Shown here in pieces: positions 7,656 to 23,338 of a stretch of DNA of 64,000 bases. The translations under genes were made by a program, and so were the position numbers. Origin of the DNA: an uncultured Acidimicrobiales bacterium (lineage in GTDB: Bacteria; Actinomycetota; Acidimicrobiia; Acidimicrobiales; SHLQ01); the NCBI GenBank assembly GCA_938038785.1, contig CALHTB010000061.1, forward strand, positions 1 to 64,000. Direction: 5' to 3'. The notes below the pieces were generated by a model. That model was not told the DNA's origin, ran no database searches, and saw nothing but the letters and a program-made list of their open reading frames with translations. The number at the start of each line of letters is the position of its first letter. The stretch's first letter is position 1.

Positions 7656-8474
7656 ATGGACGAGTACCGCACAACCAACTTGGCGAACTGGGATGAACGG
7701 GTCGCCGGCCACATGGCACCCGACGGGTATGGCGTTGACCGCTTGGTCGACGACCCCGAACACATCACGTCGGTCGTTCGCCACGACGCGGCAAAGCTTG
7801 GCAGCGTCGAAGGCCTCACGGTGCTGCACTCCCAATGCCACATCGGTACCGACACGTTGTCTTGGGCCAAGCTCGGGGCCACGGTAACCGGCCTCGACTT
7901 CTCGCCAAAGGCCATCGCGGCTGCCCGCAGCCTCGCCGAACGGATGGGCATCGACGCCGCCTTTGTCGAGACCGAGTTGTACGACGCACCGAGCCACATC
8001 GAGGGAACCTTCGACCTGGTGTACACCAGCGTCGGAGCGATCTGTTGGCTACCCGACATCACCAAGTGGGCCGAGATCATGGCCGGGTTCGTGAAACCCG
8101 GCGGCCGGTTCTGGATTCGTGATTCGCACCCTGCGCTGATGGCGCTCGATGACGGACGTGACGACACCCAGCTCATCGTCCGCTACCCGTACTTTCATCA
8201 GCCCAAGCCGATCAACTTCTCCGATACCGAGAGCTATTTGGGAACCGCAACACTCGTGAACCCCGATTCGTACTCGTGGGCGCACTCGATCGCCGACGTA
8301 ATGAACGCGCTGATCGACGCTGGGCTCGTTCTCGAACGGTTCGACGAGTACCAACACCTCGATTGGCAGTTCTTCACATTCATGGAAGAGATCGAGGACG
8401 GAGTCTGGGCCCTACCCGAGAACGTGCGGGACAACGTCCCAACCCAATTCTCGATTCTGGCCAGCAAGCCCTAA
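7656..8474 (+). CDS. Class I SAM-dependent methyltransferase
   Basis: A 272-residue methyltransferase. Motif I is present in the variant form HSQCHIGTDTLSWAKLGA, characteristic of a bacterial family where the usual D-x-G-C-G is replaced by Q-C-H-x-G; the acidic residue that binds the ribose hydroxyls is in VTGLDFSPKA. Motif post-II reads FDLVYTSVGAICWL. Its last four bases overlap the end of the convergent carotenoid oxygenase gene. The acceptor is unknown. Confidence 0.85.
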   Translation: MDEYRTTNLANWDERVAGHMAPDGYGVDRLVDDPEHITSVVRHDAAKLGSVEGLTVLHSQCHIGTDTLSWAKLGATVTGLDFSPKAIAAARSLAERMGIDAAFVETELYDAPSHIEGTFDLVYTSVGAICWLPDITKWAEIMAGFVKPGGRFWIRDSHPALMALDDGRDDTQLIVRYPYFHQPKPINFSDTESYLGTATLVNPDSYSWAHSIADVMNALIDAGLVLERFDEYQHLDWQFFTFMEEIEDGVWALPENVRDNVPTQFSILASKP

Positions 8475-9775
8475 CGGTCGGCGACCCAGTTGCCGTGGAA
8501 GCCATGCGGCACCCGTTGCGGCAGCTCGATGGTCGCTACCCGGTCACCGGTGATGTCGGTGGCGTCGAGAATGACTAGGTCCGATGTGTCACGGGCGGCG
8601 TCGTACAGCAGCACCATGATCCATCCGTCGTCCTCAGCCGTAGCACCCTCTCGGGCAACAAAGATCGGCTCGCCCACCTCAACGCCGGTTCCCCATGTGC
8701 GGGTCTCGGTCGAACCGGTCGTCATGTCACGCTTGACCGTTGTGAAGAACCAATCAGCTGTTTCCGGGTTGCCGCCCGCGGTGTAGCCATAGCGGTACGG
8801 AAGGGTGTTCACCGCGTCGTTGACCCGAGGGAATTCGTGCACGGCATCGTCAAGCGTTTCGCGTTGAACCTTGGCCGTAGTTGGGTCGATTGTCCACCGA
8901 GCGAGCCGGGGCTTTGAGTCGCGGAACGGACCATTTCGATCACGGTCGAACATCGAGTCGTACTCGCAGATATCGATGACGACCGTGCCATCGTCTGCGT
9001 CATAGCTGTTCATTGGGTGGTACGCAAAGCACGGGTCGATCTCGCACCAGATGACCTCGTCTTCGGTTGTCGCCGCCCGTGGCACCAACCCAATTCGGGC
9101 GTTGTAGTCATGGAACCAACGAAGCGGAAACGGTGAGCCGCCCATGGCCATCTCAAAGTCGACCGCGACCGGCAGGTCAAACACGGCGCCGTAGGTTTGG
9201 GTCAAGCCCATGTCATGAATCATCGGCATGGTGGGCGTGGTGATCGGAACGCTCTTGGTCACGACGCCTTCGGGTGACACGACGACGTAGTGCACCTTGT
9301 CGACCTGATCGGGCCAGTGATAGCAAACCGCGTGCAGCTCCCCGGTCACCGGGTCGAGCTTTGGGTGCGCGGTGAAGCCCGAGGGCAGGCCACCCAGGTC
9401 GCTACGACCAACAATGTTGAGCTCGTCATCGAGCTCCATGGGCTTCGCGCCAGCTTCGACAATGGCGAGCGTCTTGCCCGCATGGCCGATGATGCTGGTA
9501 TTTGGGCCACCTGCGTCGACGGTTCCCGAGTAGCGATTGCGGTACCAGCGTGCCTTTCCATCACCGAGGCGGATGCCGTGCACCATGCCCTCACCAAAGA
9601 ACCAGTGATGGGTGGCAAGGTCATCAACAGACCGCGGGTTTGGGCCGTTGCGAAGGAACCGGCCACTGAGCTCGGGAGGGATCGAGCCCGTGACCGGCAG
9701 GTCGATGGCAGTAACTTCCTCGGCAACAGGTGCAAAGTTGCCAGCGAGATAGGGCGAAGCGTCGTACGTGGTCAT
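8471..9775 (-). CDS. Carotenoid cleavage oxygenase family protein
   Basis: A 434-residue member of the RPE65/carotenoid oxygenase family, seven-bladed propellers with an iron held by four His. Candidate ligands lie in FTAHPKLDPVTG, MIHDMGLTQ, RWFHDYNAR and the final PHGFHGNW; the N-terminal GRFLRNGPNP is highly conserved in the family. I start it at the ATG at 9775; the frame also allows a TTG two codons earlier. Such enzymes cleave carotenoids, apocarotenoids or lignostilbenes. No carotenoid biosynthesis gene is in the window, so substrate is open. Confidence 0.9.
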   Translation of the reverse strand: MTTYDASPYLAGNFAPVAEEVTAIDLPVTGSIPPELSGRFLRNGPNPRSVDDLATHHWFFGEGMVHGIRLGDGKARWYRNRYSGTVDAGGPNTSIIGHAGKTLAIVEAGAKPMELDDELNIVGRSDLGGLPSGFTAHPKLDPVTGELHAVCYHWPDQVDKVHYVVVSPEGVVTKSVPITTPTMPMIHDMGLTQTYGAVFDLPVAVDFEMAMGGSPFPLRWFHDYNARIGLVPRAATTEDEVIWCEIDPCFAYHPMNSYDADDGTVVIDICEYDSMFDRDRNGPFRDSKPRLARWTIDPTTAKVQRETLDDAVHEFPRVNDAVNTLPYRYGYTAGGNPETADWFFTTVKRDMTTGSTETRTWGTGVEVGEPIFVAREGATAEDDGWIMVLLYDAARDTSDLVILDATDITGDRVATIELPQRVPHGFHGNWVADR

Positions 9776-9883
9776 GACCAAACACTACGCAACGCTCGGC
9801 CTGTCGTAGTCAGTCACAGGAACGAAACGCCGTCCTCCTTTCGGATGATCGCCGCAACGAGCTCCTCTGACCGATACGGAGAG

Positions 9884-14118: not shown

Positions 14119-16611
14119 TCAGCCGCCAATGCTGATGATGCCCTGGGTGTCGATCTCGGGCAGACCATCGCTGATCTCTTGAATCAGGTTCAGGCTTCCG
14201 TCACCGGCGACGTCGTAGACGCCAACGGTTCCGCTGAGACCCGCAAGCTGGTACAGGTACTCACCGTCGGGGCTGACATCGAGGTCGATAAAGCCGTCAG
14301 TGTTGCCAAAGGTGGTTGGGCCGTCGAGCACTTCACCGGGGTTGGTGAACGGGGTTGTGCCCGCAGCGGCAACGGTGTCGATGACCTCGACGGTGCCATC
14401 AGCTTGAAGCCGGAAGCTCGAGATGGTGGCGTTGATGGCGTTCGAGACGTAGAACGTCTCGCCATCGTGACCGAAGTCGATCCAGCATGCGGTGAGCTGC
14501 TGCCCGTCTGCGCCGAAGAGGTTCGGTGCCGTCGGGTCGCCAATGGCGAGGTCTCCTTCGGTGATGGTCAGGCTAGAGTCGCTGCCCAATTCGTAGACAG
14601 TGACCGAGCCAGCCTGGAGTGCAGGCAGGGCAGGCGGTGCGCCTTCGGAGTTGAACTCACGAGCCTCGGTCACCACGACGAACTCGCGTCCACCAATGAC
14701 AGTGATGTCGAAGTCGATCGCTGACGGAAGGTTCCGACCCTCGGCGTTGCCGCGAAGGGTTGGGGTGCCGGTGTCAGCGAGCTGGAGCCGACCGGAGCGC
14801 AAGATGTCGAAGCTGTAGAGCGATGCTTCGGCGTTTGCTCCGGGAAGAGCGGCCGAGCCCGAGGTGATCGAGCTCACGATGAGACGGTCACCGTCGGTCG
14901 AGAAGTCAACATCTGCAGGACGATTGTCCAGGTCAGCCGATTGGCCGGTGGCGACGAGTGCTCCTGCGTCATTGAGGTAGAAGCCGACGATGTTGCCTTC
15001 GTCGTTGGGCTCGCCACGGGTCGAGCCAGCCTCGCCCAATGCCAGTCCGTCACGGTCGATGTTGGTCACGAAGACCAGGCCATCATTTACTGCGATCGAG
15101 TTCGGGCCGACGCCACCGGAGTCCACTTCGGAGAGAAGCGTGAGGGTGAAGTCGTCGTTGATTGCGAACGAGCTGATGGAGTTCGAGCCCGCGTTCACAG
15201 CGAGCAGGATGGATTCGTCTTCGGTGACGACTAGCGAGTCAGCCGAGATCAATGGATCGAGGCCTTCACCACCATCGAAGTCGGTGGAGCCAGTGCCTCC
15301 GGTAGCGAAGTTTCCGATGTGGCTGAGCGAACCATCGGCGTTGCGGCCGAATGCGGCGATCTCGTTGGCGTCAAGGCCGTTGGTACCAACGAACACGGCG
15401 CCTTCGAATGCTGCAGCGTCACCGTCGACAGCAATGAGCTCCCATGTGGTGCTGGCGCCAGGCTCGGTGGATGTGTCGGCATTGAAACCAGGGCGGCTGG
15501 CGTTGAGCAGGCGCTCGGTGCCGACGTTGCGCAGGTAGTAGCCGCCATCAGCGTCGACGATCTGCCAGTACGCCGATTCATCGACCGGTCCCGTCAAGTC
15601 GACGTTGTATCCAGCATCGGCTCCATCTGCATCCAAGTAGAGGCCAGTGGAGACCGACTCGATCAGATAGTTGCCATCGCCAGCGTCACGAACAATCCAC
15701 TCGGCTGCGGTGTTGGTCTGGTTCGAGGTGTACACGTTGACGTTTGGTTGTGCTTCAAGGTAACGGCCGAACTCACCATCGCGAATGAAGAACGAGCTGC
15801 CATCGATTCCCGCAGCAGCGGCGTCGTCTGCGTCGCCCGTGTCAGCGTCAGCAGCGCTGACCACGTCGACGGTGATTCGAGCGACAGTTTCGTCGGATTC
15901 GATTGCGCCACTGCCATCGGAACCAATCGTGGTTCCCGCAGCGGTCTGGAGTCCGACGAGGTTCGAGAAGAGGTCAGGGTGAATAGCAACGGTGCCGGTT
16001 GGATCGTCGGTCGACTCACCTGAGCCCTGTCCGTCGAAGCCGAGAGAGAACCCAGCAGCGCCAGATCCAGTGTTGACCTCGGTGCCAGAGTCGTAGATTC
16101 GCGATCCGTCGATCACAAAGCTCACCGGACCAGTGAAGTTCCCGCTCTCATCGAACAGTTCGTATGCGGTCGGTGTTCCGTTGCCGAAGAACCCGTCATT
16201 GGACGGAATGATCATCGACGCGAACGAGAAGTACCGGTATGCAGCTGGGTTGATGATGTCGATCGACCCCTCAACTACGGCACCCGGCCCGATCGGACCG
16301 TTGTGCACGGTCGTCTGCAAACGACCAGGCGCTTCGAACTCAGCGCTCAGGGGAGCAGTGTCGCCCGTCTCGGCGAGGATCTCCAGACCCTCTGAGGCGC
16401 GCTCGCCACCGTTGAAGAGGTCAAAACTGCCGTTGTGCAGGCCGGTCCATACCGGCGTGAAGAAGAAGCCATCAGATGGCTGGAGATTCTCAACCGTGAT
16501 ACGAACCTGTTGGGGACCTGAATCGCCTTGCGCAGACACCGTAGGTGCGGTGGCAAGAGTGGTCGCGACCACTATCACCGCAATGAGCGCAGAGTGGGTT
16601 TCGAGCGACAA
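14119..16611 (-). CDS. Secreted spondin_N / beta-trefoil / beta-propeller protein
   Basis: An 830-residue exported protein. Residues 1-28 are a signal peptide ending TVSAQG. About 35-230 is a spondin_N domain (VRITVENLQP, FFFTPVWTGLHNGSFDLFN, PGRLQTTVHNGPI, YFSFASMIIPSNDGFF). About 270-395 reads as a beta-trefoil (ricin/fascin-like) with repeats such as EFGRYLEAQP and STGLYLDADG. From about 400 to the end is a lactonase-like seven-bladed propeller (SISSFAINDD, GFYLNDAGAL, YSFDILRSGRL, SSFRLQADGT, GVYDVAGDGSL). The composition is acidic. It is monocistronic with a strong hairpin downstream. Surface binding or matrix function is inferred; no catalytic residues are evident. Confidence 0.8.
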   Translation of the reverse strand: MSLETHSALIAVIVVATTLATAPTVSAQGDSGPQQVRITVENLQPSDGFFFTPVWTGLHNGSFDLFNGGERASEGLEILAETGDTAPLSAEFEAPGRLQTTVHNGPIGPGAVVEGSIDIINPAAYRYFSFASMIIPSNDGFFGNGTPTAYELFDESGNFTGPVSFVIDGSRIYDSGTEVNTGSGAAGFSLGFDGQGSGESTDDPTGTVAIHPDLFSNLVGLQTAAGTTIGSDGSGAIESDETVARITVDVVSAADADTGDADDAAAAGIDGSSFFIRDGEFGRYLEAQPNVNVYTSNQTNTAAEWIVRDAGDGNYLIESVSTGLYLDADGADAGYNVDLTGPVDESAYWQIVDADGGYYLRNVGTERLLNASRPGFNADTSTEPGASTTWELIAVDGDAAAFEGAVFVGTNGLDANEIAAFGRNADGSLSHIGNFATGGTGSTDFDGGEGLDPLISADSLVVTEDESILLAVNAGSNSISSFAINDDFTLTLLSEVDSGGVGPNSIAVNDGLVFVTNIDRDGLALGEAGSTRGEPNDEGNIVGFYLNDAGALVATGQSADLDNRPADVDFSTDGDRLIVSSITSGSAALPGANAEASLYSFDILRSGRLQLADTGTPTLRGNAEGRNLPSAIDFDITVIGGREFVVVTEAREFNSEGAPPALPALQAGSVTVYELGSDSSLTITEGDLAIGDPTAPNLFGADGQQLTACWIDFGHDGETFYVSNAINATISSFRLQADGTVEVIDTVAAAGTTPFTNPGEVLDGPTTFGNTDGFIDLDVSPDGEYLYQLAGLSGTVGVYDVAGDGSLNLIQEISDGLPEIDTQGIISIGG

Positions 16612-16731: not shown

Positions 16732-19263
16732 TTATTGGCTGCTGATTGCAGCCAGAACGTTCATTGCTCCGGCCCGGCGGGCGGGAAGCAATGCGGCGAT
16801 CAGACCAGCGCCGGCAGCCACGGCCACCAATACCAGAATCTGGCCGACAGGAATCGAAATCGAACCTGCAAACGTATCGGGCAACGCTTCGACCGTGAGC
16901 CAGCCGAGGCCAATGCCCATGGCCACACCAAGAACCGCACCAAAGCCAGCAATGACAGCCGACTCGTAGCGGATCATACGGCGAACTCCTCGACCGCTCA
17001 TGCCAACCGCTCGCAGCAGTCCAATCTCTCGAGTCCGTTCGCTCACCGAAAGAGCCAGGGTGTTGGCGATGCCGATGAGGGCAATGATTACGGCGAGGGC
17101 GACGAGGGCGTTCATGACCGACAAGATCTGATCGACCAAGCCTTCGACACGTTCTTGGAACTGTGCCGACGTTTCGAGCTCGCCCTGCGGGTAGCGCTCG
17201 GCAAGTGCCTCGACTGCCGTAGTGGCGGTCGCCGAGTCGACACCGTTGGCCACGCTGAACGCCAGCCACAAATCGCTGGCCGTGACTCCAGCTCGATCAA
17301 ACACGTCGACATCGACGACCCAGTCCTGGGTGACGACGGCGTCGTTGTCGAAGATGGCCGACACGTTGAGCGTGGTGGCAACACCCGTCTCCAAGGTGAC
17401 ATCGATGGCATCCCCAACGGCGATCGCATCGAGGTCAGCTCGAGCTCGACTCACGAGCACCGAGTCGTCTGCGCCATCGATGGCTCCCTCGGTTACGTCG
17501 AGGTCGAACAGGGTGGGGAGATGCCCGAAGCGAGCAGCGATGACATCGACGATCTCGTCGTCGACCTGCATCTCGGCTACCCGGAAACCGGTGACAGCGT
17601 CGAACGTAGGGTCGGCGTCGATCTCTTCGACGATGGCGGTTGGGAACCCGGCCTCGGCTGCCTGGTCGGTCAGCAGATAGTCGGCGAGCATCGCTGTTTC
17701 GAGGTTCGAACCGATCTGCGACTTGATGGACTGGCCGACGACCAGCGCCATCGATACAACAGCCAATCCGATCATCAGCGCAGTGGCCGTCGTTGCGGTG
17801 CGGCCAGCCTGACGACGGGCGTTTCGAACGGCCAGGCTTCCGGGCATCCCGAGGCGCTCGAGCACCAACCCGAAACTGCTAGCAACGGGAGCCACCAGCC
17901 GAGGGCTAATCGTCGTGACCGCAACGAAGATCATGAGTGCACCAACACCCATCATGGTGAGCATGGCCGACGTCGAACCGTTGCCAGCCACACCGAGCCC
18001 GGCAATGACCATCCCGACAACGCCGAGGCACAGACCAGCAACAAGGCGAAGCGGGCCCGATTCAGTGCGGCCAGATTCTCCTGAGCGCAGGGCGGCGATA
18101 GCAGGAACCTGGGTGGCCTTGCGGGTGGGCCACCACGCTGCGATCAGCGTGACACCCAATCCAACGAGCAATGCAACGCCTATGGTTCGAGGAGCAACGG
18201 TCAGGTCATACTCAGGAAGCGTGACGCCGATAGCGGTGAACAACGCGGTGAGCCCAGTAGCGACGCCGATACCACCGGGGATACCGATCGCCGAGGCGAG
18301 TAGGCCAATTACGCCTGCTTCACCGAGTGCGCCCCTACGGAGTTGCTTTGCGTCGGCGCCAACCAGTCGGAGCAAACCCATCTCTCGGGTGCGCTGCTGC
18401 AAGACGATGGCGAAGGTGTTGCCGATGATGAAGATCGACACCAGCAAAGAAATGCCAGCGAATCCGAGCAACACGTACTGGATGATGTCGATCTGCGTGT
18501 TGAATTCGGCCGCAGTCTCATCGGCCAGCGATGCCTGCGTGAGCACGTCGAGCTCGGGAACTGCTGCCCGAATCGCAGCTTCTGCCCCAGCGAGATCAGC
18601 ACGTCCGCTGTTCGTCATAGCAATGGCGATGCTGTCGAAACCGACCGTGCCAAACAGCTGGTCGGTCTGGTCGGCGTTCATCGACATCAACGTCGCGCCG
18701 ACCGTGGCGTTGTCTTCGCCAAACTTCGTCAGCCCCGACAGCGTCAGCTCATGTCGGCCGGTTGACGATACGACCGTGTACGTGTCTCCAATAACGAAGC
18801 CATGCTTCGCGGCCGAGTCAAGGTCGATGACAAACTCATCGACCCCTGGCGGCGAGCCGTCGACCATGCTCAAGGGTGATAGGCCCGGAGCGTCCACCCA
18901 GCTGAAGGCCAGCTGCGGCGGTCCGTTGCTAGGAATCTCCTCGCCAGCAGCGGTGATGGGGCGAACCGAATTCTCCGGTGCCGAGGTCGACCCGATGGCC
19001 ATCGCTACACCGTCGACTGCTTGCAGTGTGGCGACGTCGTCATCGTCAAGAAACTCGGTCGAGCCAAACGTCTCGACCGGGCGGATCTCGAAGTCCGTTG
19101 AGGCAACGATGTCGGTGCTGAGATCGTTGAAGGTCTTGCGGAGTCCGTCACTGAGCACAAAGGCCGAGACGACGAAACTGACGGCGATGACCACGCCAAA
19201 CGTGGTCATGGCGAAGCGGCCCATGTTGGCCCGCAGGTTTCGGATGGTGAGTGTGCTGATCAT
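16732..19263 (-). CDS. ABC transporter permease, FtsX/MacB-like
   Basis: An 843-residue permease with two FtsX-type halves. An N-terminal helix (FGVVIAVSFVVSAFVLSDGL) precedes a MacB-like periplasmic domain, then helix clusters around residues 265-450; a second extracytoplasmic domain follows helix ATALMIGLAVVSMALVVG, and three helices end the protein (ALVALAVIIALIGIANTLALS, GFGAVLGVAMGIGLGW, ILVLVAVAAGAGLIAALLP). Each half carries the FtsX coupling phrase (RTREMGLLRLVGA, RTREIGLLRAVGM). It follows the ATPase gene by 33 bases. Such systems export lipids, peptides or antibiotics or act in envelope stress. No adaptor protein is adjacent. Confidence 0.9.
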   Translation of the reverse strand: MISTLTIRNLRANMGRFAMTTFGVVIAVSFVVSAFVLSDGLRKTFNDLSTDIVASTDFEIRPVETFGSTEFLDDDDVATLQAVDGVAMAIGSTSAPENSVRPITAAGEEIPSNGPPQLAFSWVDAPGLSPLSMVDGSPPGVDEFVIDLDSAAKHGFVIGDTYTVVSSTGRHELTLSGLTKFGEDNATVGATLMSMNADQTDQLFGTVGFDSIAIAMTNSGRADLAGAEAAIRAAVPELDVLTQASLADETAAEFNTQIDIIQYVLLGFAGISLLVSIFIIGNTFAIVLQQRTREMGLLRLVGADAKQLRRGALGEAGVIGLLASAIGIPGGIGVATGLTALFTAIGVTLPEYDLTVAPRTIGVALLVGLGVTLIAAWWPTRKATQVPAIAALRSGESGRTESGPLRLVAGLCLGVVGMVIAGLGVAGNGSTSAMLTMMGVGALMIFVAVTTISPRLVAPVASSFGLVLERLGMPGSLAVRNARRQAGRTATTATALMIGLAVVSMALVVGQSIKSQIGSNLETAMLADYLLTDQAAEAGFPTAIVEEIDADPTFDAVTGFRVAEMQVDDEIVDVIAARFGHLPTLFDLDVTEGAIDGADDSVLVSRARADLDAIAVGDAIDVTLETGVATTLNVSAIFDNDAVVTQDWVVDVDVFDRAGVTASDLWLAFSVANGVDSATATTAVEALAERYPQGELETSAQFQERVEGLVDQILSVMNALVALAVIIALIGIANTLALSVSERTREIGLLRAVGMSGRGVRRMIRYESAVIAGFGAVLGVAMGIGLGWLTVEALPDTFAGSISIPVGQILVLVAVAAGAGLIAALLPARRAGAMNVLAAISSQ

Positions 19264-19296: not shown

Positions 19297-20085
19297 TTAG
19301 TGACCGATGCGGCGCATGCGGTCGAGGACGAGGTCGGGCGTTGGTTCGAACAGCTCGTCAACGACACTTCCGTCGGCGAGAAAGAGGACTCGATCCGAGT
19401 AGCTGGCAGCGACCGGGTCGTGAGTCACCATGACGATCGTCTGGCCGAACTCGCGGACGGCCCGGCGCATGAATCCAAGGATCTCGGCACCTGTGCTGCT
19501 GTCGAGATTTCCGGTGGGCTCGTCGGCAAAGATGAGCTCTGGGCGGCCAGCAAGTGCCCGAGCCACCGCCACCCGTTGTTGTTGACCACCGGAAAGTTCG
19601 TTCGGTCGATGATCCATCCGGTCGGCGAGGCCGACGGCGCTCACCACTTCATCGAGCCATTCGGCATCGACTTTGCGACCAGCGAGAGCCCCGGGCAGCG
19701 TGATGTTCTCTTCGGCTGACAATGTCGGCACAAGGTTGAAGGCTTGAAAGATGAATCCGAGGCGATCACGACGAAGCTGAGTGAGTTGTTTCTCGCTCGC
19801 CTCGCTGATGTCGGAGTTGCCAACGACGACCCGACCATCGCTGAGACGGTCGAGCCCAGCCATACAGTGCATGAGGGTCGACTTGCCCGAGCCCGATGGG
19901 CCCATGATCGCCGTGAACTGACCGGCGGCAAAGTGCACGTCGACTGCGTTGAGTGCGACGACTCGCGTATCGCCCTCGCCGTAGATCTTCGTGGCGCCAT
20001 GTGCGGAAGCGGCGAAGTTCGACGCAGGTGCGGCGATGGTTTGAGGGGTGGACGTAGCTTTGGGGTTTCGGAGTGTGAGGTTCAT
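19297..20085 (-). CDS. ABC transporter ATP-binding protein, MacB/LolD type
   Basis: A 262-residue ATPase that would energise the FtsX-type permease downstream. Walker A is GPSGSGKST, the signature is LSGGQQQR, Walker B is LIFADEPTGNLDS, and the switch His is in VMVTHDP. The start at 20085 (MNLTLRNPK, preceded by GAAGG) is preferred over an in-frame start at 20148 because the extra residues are not family-like and would bring the start within 26 bp of the palindrome at 20174-20195. Confidence 0.9.
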   Translation of the reverse strand: MNLTLRNPKATSTPQTIAAPASNFAASAHGATKIYGEGDTRVVALNAVDVHFAAGQFTAIMGPSGSGKSTLMHCMAGLDRLSDGRVVVGNSDISEASEKQLTQLRRDRLGFIFQAFNLVPTLSAEENITLPGALAGRKVDAEWLDEVVSAVGLADRMDHRPNELSGGQQQRVAVARALAGRPELIFADEPTGNLDSSTGAEILGFMRRAVREFGQTIVMVTHDPVAASYSDRVLFLADGSVVDELFEPTPDLVLDRMRRIGH

Positions 20086-20173
20086 ACCTTCGACCGTACG
20101 GATCAGCCGATTTCGGGTCGTCAGGCCCAGTGATGATTGCGCCTCCACCGCAGGGAGGGCCTCTCGCAGCGCG

Positions 20174-20195
20174 GGGTCGTCCCAAGGGATGACCC
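20174..20195. promoter_or_regulatory. Palindromic operator shared with the two-component operon (site 1)
   Basis: GGGTCGTCCC and, two bases later, GGGATGACCC form a 22-bp palindrome with a single G-T type mismatch. It lies about 100 bp upstream of the ABC ATPase start and 57 bp upstream of the divergent PAS-kinase gene. A second copy of the same architecture lies upstream of the DesK/NarL operon (23317-23338). Confidence 0.6.
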
Positions 20196-20252
20196 GAGCA
20201 TCGAATCACGAGTGGTTGGTCGATCTCACAATCTGAGCATCATTCTGTAAGT

Positions 20253-21398
20253 ATGAATGTGAGCGATACACCAAGCCTTTGGGGAGATGTGGTGTTCGAA
20301 GACTCAACGAAGACGGCTGTGAACGACAGTGTCCTTGCGCGGGCATTTGATCGAGCGAAGATTGCGTTGTGCCTTATCGATAGCGACCTTTGCTACCTCT
20401 GGGTGAACGATGCGTTCGCCGAACTACTCCGCTATGAGCGGCGCGACTTGGTTGGACGTTCTCTCATCGAGATCACACACCCAGACGACGTCGACCTCGA
20501 TATCGACCTCTCCCAAAGAGTTTTTGACGGCACAATTCCCTACTTTTCAGCGCGCAAGCGATACCTCGGTGGCGATGGGTCGATCGTCGTCAGTGACCTG
20601 CTCGCAACAGTCGTACATACAGAAGACGGCACCGCTTTGGGTTTGGGCATTCAAACGGACGCAGCAAAGCTTGATCCAACGACACAACGCATCGAGACGT
20701 TGCAACGCTCGGCGGCCATTGGCCAGCTGACCGCCTCGGCGGTCCATGACATTCGCAACAGCCTTTCAGCCATTTCGCTTATCGGGGAGACCTTGCACAA
20801 CACCATCGGCTCGAGCGATGCGGTCGCTCTCCTACGCCACGAAGTTGAAGCATCCCAGGCGCTGCTCAGCTCGATCGCCACCTTCGCCCGACCACCTCAA
20901 CCCGAGCCTCCAACCGAAGCGCCGCTGCTGAGCGTCGGGGCGCTCGTCGACCAGACTCGGGCCCTGCTCAAGCTCATCGTGCCGTCGGGTACCCGACTGG
21001 ACATCGACCTTGAAGACGCGGCCCTGTTTCCCCACATCGAACCTCGAGAGTTTCAACAAGTTGTGATCAACCTTGTCCTCAACGCTCGTGATGCGATCGT
21101 TGGCGAGGGCGGCAGGATCCTTATCACCGCGGAACGCACCAAGGGCGACGAGAATTGCACTGACATTTGCGTTGCCGACAACGGAACTGGCATGTCTGCC
21201 GACGATCTCGAACGAGCCTTCGAGCCGTACTTCACCACCAAGGGGGAATCGGGCACTGGCCTCGGCCTGTCGATCTGCCGGGACATCGTCGAGCGTCACG
21301 GCGGTTCGCTATTCGTCGAGTCAACCCTGGGTCAGGGCACCAGCTTTAGAGTGAGACTGCCGGTCGCCTTCTTGCAACTGCCCGAGGCCAAGAGCTAG
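20253..21398 (+). CDS. PAS-domain sensor histidine kinase, NtrB-like, soluble
   Basis: A 381-residue cytoplasmic kinase with no membrane segment. A PAS domain covers about 28-135 (ALCLIDSDLCYLWVNDAFAELL, then GRSLIEITHPDD). The phosphoacceptor is H165 in AVHDIRNSLSA. The ATPase domain has the N-box (VVINLVLNARDAI), G1 (CVADNGTGM), F-box (FEPYFTTK) and G2 (GTGLGLSI). No response regulator is co-oriented with it; the neighbouring regulator at 21395 is convergent and has its own kinase. Its partner is therefore unknown. Confidence 0.88.
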   Translation: MNVSDTPSLWGDVVFEDSTKTAVNDSVLARAFDRAKIALCLIDSDLCYLWVNDAFAELLRYERRDLVGRSLIEITHPDDVDLDIDLSQRVFDGTIPYFSARKRYLGGDGSIVVSDLLATVVHTEDGTALGLGIQTDAAKLDPTTQRIETLQRSAAIGQLTASAVHDIRNSLSAISLIGETLHNTIGSSDAVALLRHEVEASQALLSSIATFARPPQPEPPTEAPLLSVGALVDQTRALLKLIVPSGTRLDIDLEDAALFPHIEPREFQQVVINLVLNARDAIVGEGGRILITAERTKGDENCTDICVADNGTGMSADDLERAFEPYFTTKGESGTGLGLSICRDIVERHGGSLFVESTLGQGTSFRVRLPVAFLQLPEAKS

Positions 21399-22063
21399 CG
21401 GAGCTCGCCCGGGCGGACCACGCCAGTCTCGTAGGCAGCCACGACCGCTTGCACCCGGTCGCGAACGCCGAGCTTCATCAGCACTCGACTGACGTGGGTC
21501 TTTACCGTGGTCTCGCCCAATATCAGCGACTCCGCGATCTCCTGGTTAGACAGCCCCTGGGCCATCAGTGCCCACACTTCAGATTCGCGGTTGGTCAATG
21601 AGTCCACCGCTTGGGTTGCGACAACGGGGTCGTCGGGAGTGTGTCGGGCAAACTCCTCGATCAGCGTCCGGGTGACCGACGGTGCGAGCAACGCCTCGCC
21701 ACCGGCGATGAGTCGAATCGCGCGGACCAACTCCTCGGTCGGGCTGTCCTTCAGCAAGAACCCGCTCGCTCCGGCTCGAATGGCGCCGTAGACGTAGTCG
21801 TCGAGGTCAAACGTGGTGAGCACCAGCACCTTGGTGTCGAGGTCGTCGTCCTCGGCAATGAGCCGTGTTGCTTCTAGCCCATCCATTTCTGGCATACGAA
21901 TATCCATCAGCACCACGTCCGGGCGAGCTCGCCGAACCTGTTCGACACCCTCACGTCCGTCCGAACCAATGCCGACAACTTCCATGTCGTCTTGGGCATC
22001 GAGAATCATCTCAAAGCCCGTGCGCATGAGTTGCTGGTCATCGACGATGCTTACACGAATCAT
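21395..22063 (-). CDS. NarL/LuxR-family response regulator
   Basis: A 222-residue response regulator. The receiver domain has the acidic pair in VDDQQ, the phosphorylation site D54 in VLMDIRMPEMDG, Thr in VLVLTTFD and Lys in GFLLKDSP. The LuxR-type helix-turn-helix is at about 155-215 (LTNRESEVWALMAQGLSNQE, then TTVKTHVSRVLMKL). It overlaps the kinase gene upstream by 4 bases. It is the best candidate to bind the shared palindrome at 20174 and 23317. Confidence 0.92.
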   Translation of the reverse strand: MIRVSIVDDQQLMRTGFEMILDAQDDMEVVGIGSDGREGVEQVRRARPDVVLMDIRMPEMDGLEATRLIAEDDDLDTKVLVLTTFDLDDYVYGAIRAGASGFLLKDSPTEELVRAIRLIAGGEALLAPSVTRTLIEEFARHTPDDPVVATQAVDSLTNRESEVWALMAQGLSNQEIAESLILGETTVKTHVSRVLMKLGVRDRVQAVVAAYETGVVRPGELR

Positions 22064-23262
22064 GTGGTCACCCTCGCAGCGAGCGGAAGTGTGGCATACA
22101 CGCCGTAGCCGCCGCCTGGCGTTGGACCGGAGCTAAAGGTGCCGTTGTAGATTTCGACCCGCTCACGCATTCCCCGCAAGCCATGCCCAGATCCCGCAGT
22201 CGACATTGATGCCGCAGCACCAAGTCCGTCATCGGTGACACTGATCGCAAGCTCGTCGCCCGTGCAATCGATAGTGGCCACGACCTTGACGGGTCGGCCA
22301 GCGTGTCGGAGCACGTTTGTCAGCGCTTCCTGCACGATGCGATAGCCGGTGAGCTCGACGCTCGGTGGCAGATCCGCGTGCTCGCCGGTAACCGAAAGCT
22401 CGAGTTCGACGCCCGCAACTTCGACCTGCTTGCGCAGTTCCTCGATATTGCCCAAGCCGGGCTGCGGTTCGAGTTCAAGATCGCTGTGTTCGTTGCGGAG
22501 CACTCCGAGCATGCGCCGCATGTCGTCGACCGAGGTGCGGCCGATGTTCTCAATTGTTTCAAGCACGTCGCGAGCCTTTGTCGGGTTCGTGTCGACCACA
22601 CTTTGTGCGGCCTGTGCCTGTACCACGACGGTGCTCATGCCGTGGGCGATAATGTCGTGCATCTCGCGCGCGATGCGGGTGCGTTCCTCGACCGCTGCGA
22701 GCGCAGCCTTGTTTTCCATGTCAGCTTCGAGCGCAGCAGCACGCTGCTCAAGTTGCTCCACATAGCGGCTTCGCTGGTACAACGCCTCGCCGATGGCGGC
22801 GAAGGTGCCATGGATAATGAAGATTCCCACGATGGCGATTGCGGGAAGGTCCTCGGTTGGTACGACAACGCCAAGAATCGCAATCGCGACGATGACGGTA
22901 AGACACGATGCGACCACTCGCCAGACTCGCTGGCGATCGTCGCCCCCGTGGCGAGTCGCAGCATAGAACAACAGCCACATCGCGGGCTCGGCGGTTCCCG
23001 GATAGTCGAGCACCCAGTAGGTGACCGTAAAGGCGACGCACGCCATGAGGGCCGGAAGAGGCTTGGTCCGGTACCAGAACACGCAGATCGCAGCGCCCCA
23101 CACGAGGAGATAGGCAAACCAGTCGGCGGCCCGCTCGCTCCCACCAAGGGGAACGCTTGCGGTGGCGATCGACCCGCCGATGCCCATGAACAGCACCCAA
23201 ACAATGCTCACAGCGCGCGAATGCGCATCTATCCAATCGCCGAGTCGCTGCTGTAAGTCCAT
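22060..23262 (-). CDS. DesK-type sensor histidine kinase (HisKA_3)
   Basis: A 400-residue membrane kinase. Roughly five hydrophobic helices fill residues 15-165 with little extracellular loop, as in intramembrane-sensing kinases. A coiled linker (VEQLEQRAAALEADMENKAA) leads to the HisKA_3 site H202 in AREMHDIIAHGMS. The HATPase domain has YRIVQEALTNVLRHA, VTDDGLG and GHGLRGMRERV. Together with the overlapping response regulator it forms a complete two-component system, of the type that often regulates ABC exporters in actinobacteria. Confidence 0.92.
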   Translation of the reverse strand: MDLQQRLGDWIDAHSRAVSIVWVLFMGIGGSIATASVPLGGSERAADWFAYLLVWGAAICVFWYRTKPLPALMACVAFTVTYWVLDYPGTAEPAMWLLFYAATRHGGDDRQRVWRVVASCLTVIVAIAILGVVVPTEDLPAIAIVGIFIIHGTFAAIGEALYQRSRYVEQLEQRAAALEADMENKAALAAVEERTRIAREMHDIIAHGMSTVVVQAQAAQSVVDTNPTKARDVLETIENIGRTSVDDMRRMLGVLRNEHSDLELEPQPGLGNIEELRKQVEVAGVELELSVTGEHADLPPSVELTGYRIVQEALTNVLRHAGRPVKVVATIDCTGDELAISVTDDGLGAAASMSTAGSGHGLRGMRERVEIYNGTFSSGPTPGGGYGVYATLPLAARVTT

Positions 23263-23316
23263 ACGTCGACCGTACCGCAGATCATCGATCTGGGAATCCG
23301 CCCTGTGAACGAACGA

Positions 23317-23338
23317 GGGTCATCCCTGCGGAGGACCC
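23317..23338. promoter_or_regulatory. Palindromic operator upstream of the two-component operon (site 2)
   Basis: GGGTCATCCC and, two bases later, CGGAGGACCC repeat the 10-2-10 layout of site 1; the left arm equals the reverse complement of the right arm of site 1. The centre is 65 bp upstream of the kinase start, which fits autoregulation. Confidence 0.55.

Follow-up and report, generated by a model that had tools for sequence, protein, structure and literature searches.

Does the DesK/NarL-type two-component pair encoded by an uncultured Acidimicrobiales bacterium control both its own expression and the ABC/FtsX exporter encoded nearby? The question arises from two similar 22-bp palindromes in a 64,000-nucleotide stretch of its DNA (hereafter, the window), one upstream of the kinase gene and the other upstream of the exporter ATPase gene. 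To our knowledge, few NarL-type regulators of Actinobacteria have binding sites that are known. Judging from the comparison of promoter sequences presented here, we consider it highly likely that the regulator, which is LiaR/VraR-like, activates its own kinase–regulator operon and the exporter via tandem operators. The link of the pair to itself and to the exporter, as put forward in the original prediction, gains comparative support from recurrence in orthologues and from a fixed distance to the –10 element.

The module and its two palindromes

The genes and promoter elements considered here are listed in Table 1. The regulator and kinase genes share 4 bases, and kinase orthologues in Acidimicrobiales (71–51%) likewise adjoin a regulator. 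The best PDB relatives of the regulator are 5hev, 7ve6 and 4gvp, all titled VraR; the matches to 5hev (8e-52) and VraR (4e-40) rank ahead of those to DesR, NarL and DevR. The permease has YtrF/MacB/LolC relatives and about 10 hydrophobic segments. Just downstream of it, at 14119–16611 of the window, lies the gene of a large protein that combines Spondin_N and ricin-type lectin domains with a lactonase-like propeller.

Table 1. Coordinates of the genes, candidate operator boxes and predicted –10 elements in the window
Feature	Position	Strand	Remarks
DesK-type sensor histidine kinase, 400 aa	22060..23262	-	Pfam HisKA_3 (3.7e-19) and HATPase_c
NarL/LuxR-type response regulator, LiaR/VraR-like	21395..22063	-	Response_reg and GerE
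PAS-domain histidine kinase	20253..21398	+	Inserted between regulator and ATPase; target status not supported
ABC ATPase, MacB/LolD type	19297..20085	-	ABC_tran (4e-32); LolD/YbbA/MacB-type relatives; predicted leaderless start at 20085
Permease, 843 aa, two FtsX and MacB-type periplasmic domains	16732..19263	-	FtsX (2 stretches), MacB_PCD (2 stretches)
Carotenoid cleavage oxygenase family protein	8471..9775	-	NCBIfam NF052295 (1.4e-145, below its cut-off)
Distal box, kinase promoter	23317..23338	.	Core 23320–23335, 10/10 consensus; ends 45 bp upstream of –10
Proximal box, kinase promoter, TCGTTCACAGGGCGGA	23297..23312	-	8/10; ends 22 bp upstream of –10
–10 TACGGT, kinase promoter	23269..23274	-	6 nt before ATG; predicted leaderless
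Distal box, exporter promoter	20174..20195	.	Core 20177–20192, 10/10; ends 78 bp upstream of –10
Middle box, exporter promoter, CCCTCCCTGCGGTGGA	20144..20159	-	8/10; ends 45 bp upstream of –10
Proximal box, exporter promoter, TCATCACTGGGCCTGA	20121..20136	-	7/10; ends 22 bp upstream of –10
–10 TACGGT, exporter promoter	20093..20098	-	7 nt before ATG; predicted leaderless
Distal box, carotenoid oxygenase, TCATCCGAAAGGAGGA	9833..9848	-	10/10; ends 45 bp upstream of –10
Proximal box, carotenoid oxygenase, TCGTTCCTGTGACTGA	9810..9825	-	7/10; ends 22 bp upstream of –10 TAGTGT (9782–9787)

Both palindromes lie exactly where they had been described, with the sequences GGGTCGTCCC-AA-GGGATGACCC (exporter) and GGGTCATCCC-TG-CGGAGGACCC (kinase), and the arm said to be shared is indeed identical, the reverse complement of GGGTCATCCC being GGGATGACCC. 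Since dyads of this shape number about 50 in the window even when 8 or more of the 10 pairs must match, palindromicity alone is not rare; the rarity resides in the sequence that the two palindromes have in common. A scan of the whole genome (3.67 Mb, about 73% complete, which limits genome-wide counts) with the pattern GGGTCNTCCNNNNGGANGACCC returned only the two palindromes at up to one mismatch and no further copy, and six places at up to two mismatches compared with one for a reversed control pattern.

A conserved core that accompanies the regulator

Comparison of promoters trimmed the 22-mer to the core TCNTCC-N4-GGANGA, which is kept between genomes while the arms vary. A search for the 22-mer at one mismatch in 40 relatives recovered none of the orthologous sites that were found later, because the outer GGG/CCC is unconserved and only the 16-bp core is retained. 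Among the loci fetched at that stage, the form with a 4-base spacer was counted 51 times and the forms with spacers of 0–3 and 5–11 bases 0–11 times, these being occurrences rather than independent events, since certain loci overlap with others or appear more than once. The genome of the window contains six further exact matches to the 16-bp core; five fall within predicted ORFs and were set aside for that location, and the sixth is the intergenic site at 9833, in front of the carotenoid oxygenase gene. A combined core and half-site pattern run against 148 genomes was dropped, as its matches mostly resembled protein-coding sequence.

The core tracks the adjacent regulator. With up to one mismatch, it was observed upstream of 31 of the 39 ABC genes linked to such a regulator and of 5 of the 44 unlinked paralogues (Fisher p=1.7e-10); three of these five (L055, L066 and L121) are loci fetched for encoding a related kinase, and the true contrast between linked and unlinked genes is therefore probably larger. 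In this comparison the 4-base spacer was clearly the strongest, and the weaker enrichment at spacers 1 and 7 (p about 0.005) was taken as a product of the three-base periodicity of the half-site and of neighboring boxes. The core was not found at two exporter paralogues of the genome of the window that lack an adjacent pair, and regulators without the motif (L250, L251) differ in their recognition helix. Loci from Brevibacterium and Micrococcaceae also have cores in front of kinase or ABC genes. The motif thus recurs at both promoters in the orthologues and is nearly absent from unlinked paralogous exporters, in agreement with the proposed regulatory link, and our literature searches found no report of it.

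As G+C-rich inverted repeats between genes, the palindromes could in principle be RNA elements (terminator or attenuator hairpins) or dispersed intergenic repeats rather than protein-binding sites. Such an origin appears highly improbable, as they stand upstream of predicted leaderless starts with boxes positioned relative to the –10 element (see below), the core stays constant where the arms vary, and close copies in the genome number only two.

Tandem boxes at predicted leaderless promoters

A TANNNT hexamer is found 5–8 nt before the start codon of both window genes and of most orthologues, a spacing indicative of leaderless transcripts, which are predicted on this ground. The –10 element was picked by this rule, and promoters without one were left out. 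When 35 kinase and exporter promoters were aligned on the –10 element, a degenerate proximal dyad became apparent that ends 22–23 bp upstream, with a mean match of 7.46/10 at 21–23 bp compared with an average of 4.16 over windows 0–77; shuffles gave 3.79±0.20 and none of 3000 reached the observed value, a probability that overstates independence since the aligned promoters are related sequences. A second peak of dyad match was observed at 44–46 bp. Alignment on the distal box instead placed a second box 22–24 bp downstream (6.1/10, compared with 3.8±0.2 in shuffles), scored by simple match counts after a log-odds matrix with tiny pseudocounts had been dropped. A comparison set of 13 promoters likewise peaked at 22 bp because some of its members are kinase promoters or belong to ABC genes whose regulators lie further away, and it is not a clean negative.

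In the window itself, the boxes with the highest scores sit precisely 45 and 22 bp upstream of the –10 element in the kinase promoter and 78, 45 and 22 bp upstream of it in the exporter promoter, the exporter distal box lying 33 bp further upstream than that of the kinase. In each tandem operator, the palindrome is the box with the best match and the greatest distance from the –10 element. The original view of the palindrome as a site for the regulator is thus supported comparatively, but the operator has several boxes, and the palindrome, which does not stand alone, supplies just the distal one.

The same layout bears on the PAS kinase gene, which had also been suggested as a possible target. 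Regulation of the divergent PAS kinase by the palindrome at 20174, in addition to the exporter, seems unlikely. The core is located about 60 bp upstream of the PAS kinase start, a distance like that at the DesK-type kinase gene; on the PAS kinase strand, however, there is neither a proximal box nor a TANNNT 5–8 nt before the start. In the relatives in Acidimicrobiales, the genes for kinase, regulator, ATPase and FtsX permease follow one another on the same strand, regulator and ATPase being separated by about 120–400 bp without a PAS kinase, and the exporter keeps its box; the PAS kinase of the window, which has no membrane segment, is therefore an insertion. In one relative (G153, L219:1111-1977), a luciferase-like oxidoreductase gene occupies the same gap. 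The ATPase has kept its own palindrome in both genomes despite the inserted gene, and the gap between regulator and ATPase seems prone to insertions. Control of the PAS kinase by the regulator is accordingly not supported, its promoter lacking the operator layout and the gene being missing there in relatives.

The position of the proximal box also raises the direction of control. Ending 22 bp upstream of the –10 element, this box abuts the –35 position, and a regulator bound there might mainly repress by overlapping the –35 region and blocking polymerase. We regard this as quite unlikely, since the stretch covered by the proximal box shows no clear –35 hexamer and the arrangement, a dyad centered near –42.5 with tandem boxes upstream, is the usual activator layout. 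In addition, the primary footprint of LiaR on PliaI extends from –76 to –52, and a weaker secondary site is used upon phosphorylation (PMC7191749); the distal 22-mer of the kinase promoter matches this footprint, as it covers –76 to –55 when positions are counted from the A of ATG as +1.

Activation through the tandem operators, the reading that we prefer, may proceed as follows. In response to a signal that would be of the envelope-stress type, the membrane kinase would phosphorylate the regulator, and the phosphorylated regulator, as a dimer, would occupy the distal 16-bp dyad, presumably with high affinity. Further dimers would then load onto the weaker downstream boxes, which follow at intervals of about 23 and 33 bp and thus roughly by helical turns, and the dimer on the last box, ending 22 bp upstream of the –10 element and thus centered near –42.5 of a leaderless promoter with the predicted start, would replace the missing –35 element and contact RNA polymerase, as in class II activation. 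The kinase–regulator operon would thereby be switched on in a positive feedback, together with the ABC ATPase and the FtsX/MacB-type permease and probably also the carotenoid oxygenase 10 kb away.

This oxygenase is probably a third target of the regulator, one that the original prediction missed. Both boxes were present at only 3 of the 68 leaderless-like sites in those stretches of the genome that were scanned, namely those of the kinase, the exporter ATPase and the carotenoid oxygenase, and the spacings at the last promoter (23, 22 and 6) are those of the kinase promoter. In the orthologue of one relative (G010, L182/L286), two 9/10 boxes are separated by 22 bp by computed offset, and the 22-bp and 6-nt spacings are kept; the layout was not found at the orthologues in three others (G004, G005 and G006). 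The oxygenase is thus a probable target, though a labile one across relatives.

Known systems and paralogous pairs

Among characterized systems, the operator most resembles that of LiaR (Bacillus subtilis) and VraR (Staphylococcus aureus), the regulators of the LiaFSR and VraTSR envelope-stress systems. The LiaR motif, T(X)4C(X)4G(X)4A (PMC7191749), is contained position for position in TCNTCC-N4-GGANGA, and the distal boxes match at 10/10. In common with these systems, the module has a NarL-type regulator, a HisKA_3 kinase, a 16-bp T-N4-C-N4-G-N4-A dyad, a strong primary and a weaker secondary site (here as sequence, across 35 promoters) and a kinase 22-mer positioned like the LiaR primary footprint. 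It differs in the half-site TCNTCC, in up to three phased boxes, in the predicted leaderless promoters and in being directly linked to an ABC/FtsX exporter. Inspection of the ORFs around the pair brought no LiaF-like gene to notice, and the kinase scores 61 bits against the streptococcal LiaS equivalog model, the cut-off of which is 450.

The BceRS-BceAB peptide-detoxification modules, too, have the genes of a two-component system next to those of an ABC ATPase and a permease with FtsX domains. In Bce modules the regulator is OmpR-type and the permease, BceB, carries a large loop, whereas the regulator here is NarL-type with a GerE/LuxR output domain and the permease, in which two stretches each of FtsX and MacB_PCD were recognized, is not of the BceB type (weak local match, E 0.025). 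The MacB/LolCDE/YtrF exporters share the FtsX and MacB_PCD domains and a separate LolD/MacB-type ATPase, but the duplicated 843-aa permease falls far below the curated MacB, LolCE and ADOP cut-offs (87 bits compared with 622 for the ADOP duplicated permease). AbrA1/A2 of Streptomyces coelicolor is likewise an autoactivated actinobacterial pair whose operon includes an ABC transporter, but that transporter is BcrAB-type and the genes form one four-gene operon, unlike here (PMC4193843); the words palindrome, inverted repeat, binding site and motif are all missing from the main text of that report. Because the system did not pass the LiaS and Bce tests, we describe it, on the sequence evidence, as one with a LiaR/VraR-like operator that would work like the LiaFSR and Bce types without being a member of either. 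By analogy with LiaR/VraR-type and FtsX/MacB-type relatives, an envelope-stress or peptide-defense role, as originally suggested, may be envisaged.

A similar promoter was observed at a paralogous DesK-type kinase gene of the same genome (L259/L301, G000:C21:37552), which reads TCATACTTTCGGCCGA-22-TACTGT-6-ATG, and TCATACTTTCGGCCGA stands at the same 22-bp distance in the orthologue of a relative (L285/L302, G006:C108:2567). As related operators thus exist for other pairs, the boxes of the window might be bound by another NarL-type regulator of the genome, such as this paralogue, and their linkage might reflect cross-regulation. We consider this very unlikely, since the TCNTCC/GGANGA form tracks the adjacent regulator across genomes in the proportions given above, whereas the paralogous pair has boxes of the form TCATAC/GGCCGA and a regulator that differs in the recognition helix. 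Tandem TCATAC-type boxes precede, in both genomes, the gene of a 147-aa deazaflavin/nitroreductase-like protein (L266, G000:C107:1091; L293, G006:C12:105402), named by eye, and it is likely that the paralogous pair controls this gene. Predicted lipoproteins of another genus in the family (L291, L296, L297 and L298) show tandem boxes too, equally far from the –10 element. By eye, the tandem layout was also seen in relatives before other kinases, ABC ATPases and lipoproteins.

There is, in our estimation, an even chance that phased tandem boxes, at about 22 and 45 bp from a leaderless –10 element, are an operator format common to several paralogous NarL-type pairs of the order, each with its own half-site (TCNTCC/GGANGA for the pair of the window, TCATAC/GGCCGA for the paralogue). 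If so, the wiring between regulators and targets would be readable from sequence, including that of the carotenoid oxygenase, the deazaflavin-type enzyme, lipoproteins and other ABC genes. The putative site of the window, which has strong comparative support, together with the spacing rule at predicted leaderless promoters, already makes the targets of two-component systems in the uncultured Acidimicrobiales predictable.
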